DNA of 64,000 nucleotides from contig REGJ01000003.1 in the NCBI GenBank assembly GCA_003702525.1, forward strand, positions 16,093 through 80,092, in the 5' to 3' direction. Positions within the stretch are counted from its first letter, which is position 1, and every line of letters begins with the position of its first letter. Below are positions 3,096 through 31,042 of this stretch, piece after piece. Both the position numbers and the translations under genes were made by a program. This DNA is from Candidatus Nitrosopumilus sp. (GTDB taxonomy: Archaea; Thermoproteota; Nitrososphaeria; Nitrososphaerales; Nitrosopumilaceae). Below the pieces are notes generated by a model, which was not told the origin of the DNA, did not search any database, and saw only the letters and a program-made list of their open reading frames with translations.

Positions 3096-4820
3096 TTATT
3101 TTGAACGTATTTTGTCTTGAATTTGAGCAAGAATCAATTCTGCCTTGTCCTTATTTTCAAAGTTCTCAACACTTTCATCCATGATTTCATCAATTTCATA
3201 ACTTTTGTCTACCAAGACATTTGCCACATGATCATCAAGGGTACCATTACCAATCAAATAATATGCAAATACAGTATTTTTTTGTCCAATTCTATGCAAT
3301 CTATCTTCAGCTTGTCTATGAATAGCAGGACTCCAATCAAGTTCTGCAAAAATAACATATTTTGCTTTAGTCAAGTTGATTCCGACATTTCCTGCACGAA
3401 TTCCTGCAATCATTAATTTTGATTCACCTTTTTGGAATTTGTCTATTTGATCTTGTCTTATTGTATCAGATTGTCCTCCAATGATAGATACGGGTGCAAA
3501 CTCTTGAAGACTTTCATGAAGTAATTTGTGAATTACTTTGTGGTGACAAAAGACTACAACACTTTCTTCAATTTCCATGATATTTTTTACAAAATTGATA
3601 ACATGTGGAAGTTTTGCCAAGCCTGCAATTTGTCTTTCGCTTTGAATTGCTCTATGATAAGAGGCAGATTTTGAAAATTCAGAATCAGCAGTTTTTTGTT
3701 CTTCTTCCAAACGTTTCCAGATTTTATCTAATTCCTCAACATAGTAATCAGTGTCAGCTGCAATAACTTCTTTGTAACGTACTTTATCTTTGAGTTCTTT
3801 TAAAACGTCAGATTTCTTTCGTCTAAGCATTACATGATTTTGTAAATTGTTTCTTAAGGATGCACGTTTATTTTCCAAAACAATGGCCTTGCCTTTTTCA
3901 TTTACATAACAAAAGTATTCACAGAATTCCTTAAAGCTTCCAAGCAATCCAGGTTTTAGAATATCAATAATTGGCCAAATTTCAGACCCGCGATTGTAAA
4001 TAGGAGTTCCAGATAGACCGATTCTGTAAGATACAGATGGTAATGCAGCTAATTTTTTTATTGATTTGTATTTTTGAGTTGTTTTAGATCTTAAGTTATG
4101 GACTTCATCACACACAACAGTTTTGATTCCAACCTTTGCCAAATCATCATATCTTTTGAAGAGTAATTCATAATTTATCACATAAATGTCAGTTTTGGGG
4201 AGTTCTTTTTTCTTTCCAGTTCTGATTAATGTGACACTAGGAGATTCAGATTCAATTAATCTTCCATTTCTACTTTTTTTCTTAAGGAATTTTTCAATTT
4301 CACGTTCCCAATTGTTGAGTGTTACCAAAGGTGCAACAACTAAGACTGGAAATGTTTGTTTTTCAGTTGCAACATAAGACAATGTTTGTACAGTTTTTCC
4401 AAGACCCATTTCATCAGCTAGTAATGCATTACCAGATGATTTCATCAAGAAATCCAATCCCTCTTTTTGGAAGTTTAGTAATTTTCCTCTAAATTGGTCT
4501 CCAGTTTTTGCTCGTTTTAGCTTATGCTTGACAGGAGGCAAAGTAGGTTTTGGAGCATATGTCTTTACAATTTTTCTCTGCCAAGTCGTTTTTGATAAAA
4601 TTTCTAGAGGGTATCTATCAAGGATCAATTTGATTTGTTTTACATTTTCAGAGGTATCATCAACAATGACTTCGTTTACAGTTTCACCATACCAGGCCTT
4701 AGGAACCAATCTAGAGATCATGCTCACAGCACGCTCACCAGTAATCTTCCAGCACCAGTTTTTAGAGTATTTGTCTTGAACATGCTCTAATGTTCCAATG
4801 TTTTCCATGGATGTTTCCAT
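3096..4820 (-). CDS. SNF2-family DEAD/DEAH helicase
   Basis: ALLADEMGLGKTVQTL (Walker A), VVCDEVHNLRS (motif II), GLSGTPIYNR, RLHRIGQKNTVFAYYLI. Confidence 0.92.
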   Translation of the reverse strand: METSMENIGTLEHVQDKYSKNWCWKITGERAVSMISRLVPKAWYGETVNEVIVDDTSENVKQIKLILDRYPLEILSKTTWQRKIVKTYAPKPTLPPVKHKLKRAKTGDQFRGKLLNFQKEGLDFLMKSSGNALLADEMGLGKTVQTLSYVATEKQTFPVLVVAPLVTLNNWEREIEKFLKKKSRNGRLIESESPSVTLIRTGKKKELPKTDIYVINYELLFKRYDDLAKVGIKTVVCDEVHNLRSKTTQKYKSIKKLAALPSVSYRIGLSGTPIYNRGSEIWPIIDILKPGLLGSFKEFCEYFCYVNEKGKAIVLENKRASLRNNLQNHVMLRRKKSDVLKELKDKVRYKEVIAADTDYYVEELDKIWKRLEEEQKTADSEFSKSASYHRAIQSERQIAGLAKLPHVINFVKNIMEIEESVVVFCHHKVIHKLLHESLQEFAPVSIIGGQSDTIRQDQIDKFQKGESKLMIAGIRAGNVGINLTKAKYVIFAELDWSPAIHRQAEDRLHRIGQKNTVFAYYLIGNGTLDDHVANVLVDKSYEIDEIMDESVENFENKDKAELILAQIQDKIRSK

Positions 4821-30468: not shown

Positions 30469-30536
30469 CTAATGCAAAATTAGCATTAGGTGAGAATCAA
30501 GATCATTGTTAAATATCATTTTGACGTACATTACGT

Positions 30537-30643
30537 AACGAGAAAACCATGGTTCTGCGTCGTAGAATAATGGTATGGAAAGCGTTTCATGTTAGGTGAA
30601 CGTCCTAGGAAAAAATACGCTTTCCGTGTATCTCGTTGTTTTT
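30537..30643 (+). ncRNA. Candidate structured small RNA (multi-helix)
   Basis: Closing helix AACGAGA/TCTCGTT, inner helix GGAAAGCGT/ACGCTTTCC, ACCAT/ATGGT arm capped by TTCT/AGAA, TTAGG/CCTAG apical hairpin, TTGTTTTT tail, TATA-like TTAAATAT at 30509-30516. Confidence 0.6.
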
Positions 30644-30700
30644 AGAATTATCATTTTAACACAAATAGTATTTTAATAACTAAAAAAAGAACAATGTGAA

Positions 30701-31042
30701 ATGGCAGAATTAAAAGTTCAAGGTTCTGGAGGATATGTTATTGCGGACCTTACTGATGAACAAGCAAAAAAAGCAGATTTGGGAGTTGGAAAATTATTCT
30801 TAGCACCAATTGGGAAGATTGAAACTGAAAAAATGCTCAAACATTATTGTAACAACTGTGAGATAGAATTTGATAATCCACCAAAGATTCAGTTAGAAGA
30901 AAGTCCTAATGAAGAAGTTGCAGATAATTTGATCTTAATTGAAAGAGGTCAATATGTCTGTGAGAAATGCAGTGGGGTTATTGGTGAATATAGAGAATTC
31001 CAAAAGAAAGGCGAAGTTGGAAGCGCCAGACCAAGTGGATAA
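30701..31042 (+). CDS. Hypothetical protein with two CxxC zinc-ribbon pairs
   Basis: HYCNNCEIEF...QYVCEKCSGVIGEYREF; TATA-like TTTTAATAA about 26 nt upstream. Confidence 0.7.
   Translation: MAELKVQGSGGYVIADLTDEQAKKADLGVGKLFLAPIGKIETEKMLKHYCNNCEIEFDNPPKIQLEESPNEEVADNLILIERGQYVCEKCSGVIGEYREFQKKGEVGSARPSG

Follow-up and report, generated by a model that had tools for sequence, protein, structure and literature searches.

What is encoded in the intergenic gap near position 30,600 of a Candidatus Nitrosopumilus sp. contig, and what might its product act on? We addressed this within a 64,000-nucleotide stretch of the contig (hereafter "the window"), for which a first-pass annotation had proposed a promoter-bearing, multi-helix small RNA candidate.

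A conserved three-way-junction RNA

No open reading frame of ≥30 aa was found in 30469-30700, consistent with the non-coding gap proposed earlier. The plus strand of 30535-30643 folds into a three-way junction with a minimum free energy of -39.2 kcal/mol, compared to -21.4 +/- 3.4 kcal/mol for dinucleotide shuffles (z -5.3), and 0 of 200 shuffles had an energy as good. The closing helix, arm, long helix and apical TTAGG/CCTAG hairpin of the first-pass annotation were all recovered, and the locus comprises the following features:

30501-30528, + strand: conserved promoter block GATCATTGTTAAATATCATTTTGACGTA, with a BRE-like GATCA, a TATA-like TTAAATAT at 30509-30516 and a proximal TTTTGACGTA (alignment A1; 97-copy PWM)
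30535-30643, + strand: small RNA gene, three-way junction, ~105 nt, ending in a U-run (fold z, covariation, family model R1)
30536-30542, + strand: 5' strand of closing helix P1, partner 30632-30638 (fold and covariation)
30546-30574, + strand: hairpin 1, with a near-invariant apical UCUGCGUMGUAGA (alignment and covariation)
30576-30585, + strand: 5' strand of helix P3, partner 30617-30626, with GC/AU swaps among species (covariation)
30586-30594, + strand: segment A, UUCAUGUUA, whose complement is UAACAUGAA at the S-layer start codon, -4 to +5 (sequence; relatives including N. maritimus)
30600-30607, + strand: segment B, ACGUCCUA, whose complement is UAGGACGU in the S-layer coding region, +14 to +21 (sequence; relatives)
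30617-30626, + strand: 3' strand of helix P3 (covariation)
30632-30638, + strand: 3' strand of closing helix P1 (fold and covariation)
30639-30643, + strand: T-run, likely terminator (sequence; conserved in alignment A1)

At this locus the RNA 3' end reads TTGTTTTT, and the apical TTAGG/CCTAG helix tops the long helix P3. This apical helix is the weakest element, paired in 77-83% of cells, and other genera carry different apical hairpins. The UCUGCGUMGUAGA of hairpin 1 (window 30546-30574) is kept across genera and no partner was found for it; hairpin 1 is possibly a protein site or the site for a second target.

The fold is accompanied by compensatory changes. In an alignment of 28 sequences that was not fitted to the model, both sides changed at 9 pairs, a value reached by 0 of 500 shuffles. 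Both-side changes were observed at 25 of 33 pairs across 99 sequences (0 of 500 shuffles as good), counts that lean towards the structure because this larger alignment was fitted to the model; the unfitted alignment agrees with it. Plain blastn detected the RNA in 41 of 101 relatives, all from the single genus Nitrosopumilus, and covariance model R1 extended this to 87 of 251 Nitrosopumilaceae genomes from four genera, with 1-4 copies per genome. On a sample of the wider class, every R1 match fell inside Nitrosopumilaceae, and a more diverse model (R2) applied to 38 genomes lacking an R1 match, mostly complete, returned one weak match only (G023). Copy number varies, and the gene is missing from many complete genomes of the family. 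At one locus (L127), two diverged copies (1886-1991 and 3904-4010) share a strand, separated by ~2 kb that includes protein genes. Thus, both the conservation and the compensatory changes on which the first-pass annotation had staked its candidate are present.

The same annotation had recognized no known RNA class here, and this held under systematic searches. Neither gathering nor permissive thresholds yielded an Rfam match to the window RNA (4227 families), ARAGORN found no tRNA or tmRNA in it, and no known guide family (H/ACA, C/D) scored above threshold by covariance model, the best being a worm H/ACA RNA (15 bits, E 7) on the other strand, with box motifs judged by eye. A literature search, with most subscription journals outside it, returned no description of this RNA. 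Overall, window 30535-30643 holds a genuine and conserved small RNA gene, and its nature as an RNA gene is nearly certain.

A dedicated promoter in varied genomic contexts

Upstream of the RNA, the promoter follows the layout GATCA-N3-TTAAATAT-N-ATTTTGACGTA. The TATA-like box had been placed at the distance expected for an archaeal start, and across the family it begins exactly 26 nt ahead of the RNA in 87 of 98 copies. When the promoter matrix was run on the complete genome G036, the RNA's own site scored 41.8 bits and the next best 16.2; in this genome the block is private to the RNA. Four copies (L024, L112, L134 and L135) depart from this layout, and their promoter instead contains a GGCATRCC-like element. 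The motif GGCATRCC(R)CA, ~50 nt upstream of the inferred start, is common to these second-type copies, neighboring small genes and alternate S-layer genes (Nmar_1201-type), and was seen at L024 (1449+, and two minus-strand sites), L112, L134, L135, L299 and L323.

The promoter and RNA recur as a unit in many unrelated gene neighborhoods, and neighbors differ between lineages. The order in which the RNA is followed by the gene at 30701 is kept in the window's clade, including N. maritimus. The product of this gene (window 30701-31042) is a 113-aa protein whose cysteine pairs resemble a zinc ribbon by eye. Were the RNA a cis-acting leader or riboswitch, the position of this gene in the window and close relatives would fit, on the same strand and 59 nt downstream of the RNA, but the downstream genes vary by lineage: in 44 copies the first downstream ORF of ≥100 aa runs opposite to the RNA, in 33 it shares the strand of the RNA, and no constant sense-oriented downstream gene was found across copies. 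Given these varied neighborhoods and mixed strands, the RNA is not the leader of the 30701 gene; the first-pass annotation had likewise leaned towards an independent RNA gene. We rejected the leader or riboswitch reading, to which the diversity of contexts leaves next to no probability.

Several copies per genome in unrelated locations, and a closing helix resembling terminal inverted repeats, could instead point to a non-autonomous mobile element (MITE) with a hairpin rather than a functional RNA. Yet the conserved unit extends beyond the repeats to include a promoter, compensatory changes accompany the divergence of the copies, and most RNA-bearing complete genomes have a single copy. Phage and plasmid collections contained no match to the RNA and viral contigs no match to its pattern, which also counts against a mobile element, and we regard this origin as highly improbable.

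Complementarity to the start of the main S-layer gene

The invariant unpaired segment A (UCAUGUUA) is the reverse complement of UAACAUGA, with which five genes of G036 start, and one of these is a 1725-aa S-layer gene. The other conserved segment, (U)ACGUCCU(A), likewise has its complement in the start of this gene, CAATAACATGAAYAACGARWTAGGACGT. The conserved unpaired stretches of the RNA are antisense to the opening ~30 nt of the major, Nmar_1547-type S-layer gene. The genome G184 is taken here as N. maritimus SCM1, and its two S-layer genes occupy the positions expected of Nmar_1201 and Nmar_1547; the ~105-nt RNA is predicted there at about 630,616-630,723 on the minus strand. The N-terminus of the G036 protein matches the N. 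maritimus S-layer structure (PDB 8c8k; PMC11153153). In both G036 and SCM1, the RNA gene and the S-layer gene are far apart; like a trans-acting small RNA, this is a gene with its own promoter, unlinked to its proposed target.

The S-layer candidate was first picked by inspecting genes starting with UAACAUGA, and was then scored over all genes and lineages. With a two-helix score for nine lineage RNAs against 1,782 G036 gene starts, the S-layer gene had the lowest sum of ln rank (-60.0; next -34.3). Shuffled loops did as well on the S-layer start in 1 of 2000 cases for one lineage and in 0 of 2000 for each of the other eight. Of 36,000 windows drawn at random from the genome, the only ones to reach the S-layer score lay on the S-layer start itself. 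Within single genomes, the S-layer gene ranked 1-3 for most lineages, 7-15 in the G053/G031/G013 group and 26 in G113. Single-genome duplex searches with the whole loop, hairpin 1 or the junction segments gave no target above shuffled controls, and exact antisense words were fewer than in shuffles. Overall, the complementarity of a conserved, mostly unpaired segment of the RNA to a translation start region exceeds what chance would give. The window assembly is without its own S-layer 5' end, and the pairing of the window RNA was read against close relatives; no S-layer gene of the Nmar_1547 type was found in G005 and G041, two draft assemblies with several RNA copies. Judging from these comparisons, the main S-layer mRNA is very probably the target.

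Complementarity is kept as the RNA changes between lineages

The same mRNA positions are paired in nearly all RNA copies examined. Segment A covers the AUG in all lineages, from about -8 to +6, and is extended either upstream (UCAUGUUAUUG, in g42 and g37, two genera other than Nitrosopumilus) or downstream (AUUCAUGUUA). The register in which segment B meets codons 2-9 of the S-layer mRNA varies by lineage, with complementarity kept. Specifically, the segment reads ACGUCCU in most Nitrosopumilus, pairing +13 to +22, and AUUUAUGUCC in the G006 group, pairing +16 to +25, where the mRNA has AAAU and not AAAA. It is shifted to +5 to +16 in g42 (UUCGUUGU, with mRNA AACAAC) and g37 (UUCGUUAU, with mRNA AAUAAC); in G126, a g37 genome, the S-layer gene lacks AGGACGU and the RNA lacks ACGUCCU. 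Pairing of an RNA with its own rather than a foreign S-layer start was better in 203 cases, tied in 142 and worse in 13, although such lineage counts do not equal independent events because the sequences are related.

These patterns bear on whether this could be a structural or housekeeping RNP RNA, in which proteins would bind the conserved loops and the S-layer match would be coincidental. The nearly invariant hairpin 1 loop, with no pairing partner detected, would be expected under such a reading. Against it, the S-layer gene is an outlier over nine lineages, segment B changes in sequence and stays complementary, and the patchy presence among complete genomes and variable copy number are unlike those of housekeeping RNAs; we consider it very unlikely.

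The S-layer 5' end is also conserved in genomes without a detected RNA, and therefore this RNA alone does not explain that conservation. The first 17 S-layer codons are nearly invariant in DNA across many genera, at synonymous sites too and also in genomes that yielded no RNA (L228-L248, L297-L340), and the first ~50 nt of the gene appear to be under an RNA-level constraint of their own. In addition, the main S-layer promoters (L230, L228, L322 and others) share GGACaawtyGTCC, a conserved inverted repeat immediately preceding the TATA-like box and ~40-60 nt before the ATG, which is likely a regulator site.

A predicted two-segment interaction with a nearly leaderless mRNA

The RNA gene, its structure, its promoter, and its complementarity to the S-layer start with the accompanying co-variation were each shown computationally. 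From these, we propose, with a probability of roughly 0.8, that this is a trans-acting Nitrosopumilaceae sRNA whose pairing with the nearly leaderless S-layer mRNA, at the 5' end, probably blocks translation. The RNA would be transcribed from its dedicated promoter and fold as a three-way junction, displaying at the tip of P3 the unpaired segment A (UCAUGUUA) together with segment B, which lies within or beside the apical hairpin. Segment A would then pair over the start codon (about -8 to +6) and segment B over the codons that follow (+5 to +16 or +13 to +25, depending on lineage). The spacing of the TATA-like box suggests an S-layer mRNA leader of only ~6-8 nt, so that the pairing would cover the whole mRNA 5' end. 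Most simply, this would block ribosome loading and lower S-layer synthesis; the RNA thus seems a reasonably likely repressor of the S-layer, and would probably set the amount of S-layer protein made.

Since segments A and B occur in the same 5'-3' order as their sites, simultaneous pairing would be crossing, i.e., an intermolecular H-type pseudoknot, which is an unusual pairing order. Linkers of ~5 nt in the RNA and ~9-10 nt in the mRNA make such a pseudoknot plausible in Nitrosopumilus. The sites abut in g42, and therefore only part of the pairs could form together there.

The same complementarity would fit an RNA that protects the S-layer 5' end from 5' exonucleases or aids initiation, raising S-layer output, and the covered 5' end is where a 5'-3' nuclease would start. 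Segment A lying over the AUG in all lineages should nevertheless hinder initiation, and we judge this activating role quite unlikely. A more elaborate form of the repressor reading is a coat-switching circuit, in which the RNA would silence the main S-layer gene via the intermolecular pseudoknot and the alternate coat and the silencer would be switched on together. The GGCATRCCRCA element common to the second-promoter-type RNA copies and alternate S-layer promoters makes such joint switching-on possible, and the N. maritimus RNA is predicted to pair at -24.3 kcal/mol with the alternate S-layer start (AUGUAC instead of AUGAAU), compared to -27.2 kcal/mol with the main one. Among the 251 genomes searched, the alternate start was found exactly in two only, and in neither was a second-promoter-type RNA found; the idea is weak because the alternate start was found in just these two genomes, and we hold such a circuit to be speculative and on balance unlikely.

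Relation to known small RNAs and significance

In bacteria, start-codon-blocking sRNAs repress abundant surface proteins by seed pairing over the translation start. The proposed interaction shares with these the pairing across the translation start of an abundant surface protein, and differs in an apparently nearly leaderless mRNA and in two loop segments used in crossing order; we know of no Hfq dependence of the Nitrosopumilaceae RNA. Among archaea, the closest parallel in mode of action is sRNA162 of Methanosarcina mazei, a trans-acting sRNA in which an unpaired region pairs with an mRNA and masks the translation start (PMC3510493). Its lineage, target and fold are unrelated, and in trans it acts on an internal ribosome-binding site within a bicistronic mRNA rather than at an S-layer mRNA 5' end; mobility shifts and in vivo mutants demonstrated its pairing (PMC3510493). 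Like sRNA132 of Haloferax volcanii and other archaeal intergenic sRNAs, the RNA is intergenic and proposed to act on a specific mRNA. The target of sRNA132 is a phosphate-transporter operon (PMC6560208), and sequence relation between the two was judged only by the absent Rfam match of the RNA described here. Another lineage-specific structured RNA of marine archaea is Tan1 from MG-II Euryarchaeota, reported as an unknown ncRNA; it is 229 nt long and from another phylum, and the description consulted proposes no target (PMC5069720).

Our literature search returned no small-RNA target described in this phylum. Marine ammonia-oxidizing archaea rank among the ocean's most abundant cells. Ammonium is concentrated at their surface by the S-layer (PMC11153153). 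This conserved RNA, with a specific proposed target, offers a candidate S-layer regulator directly testable in cultured N. maritimus, and may serve as a model for antisense control of nearly leaderless archaeal mRNAs via a two-segment crossing interaction.
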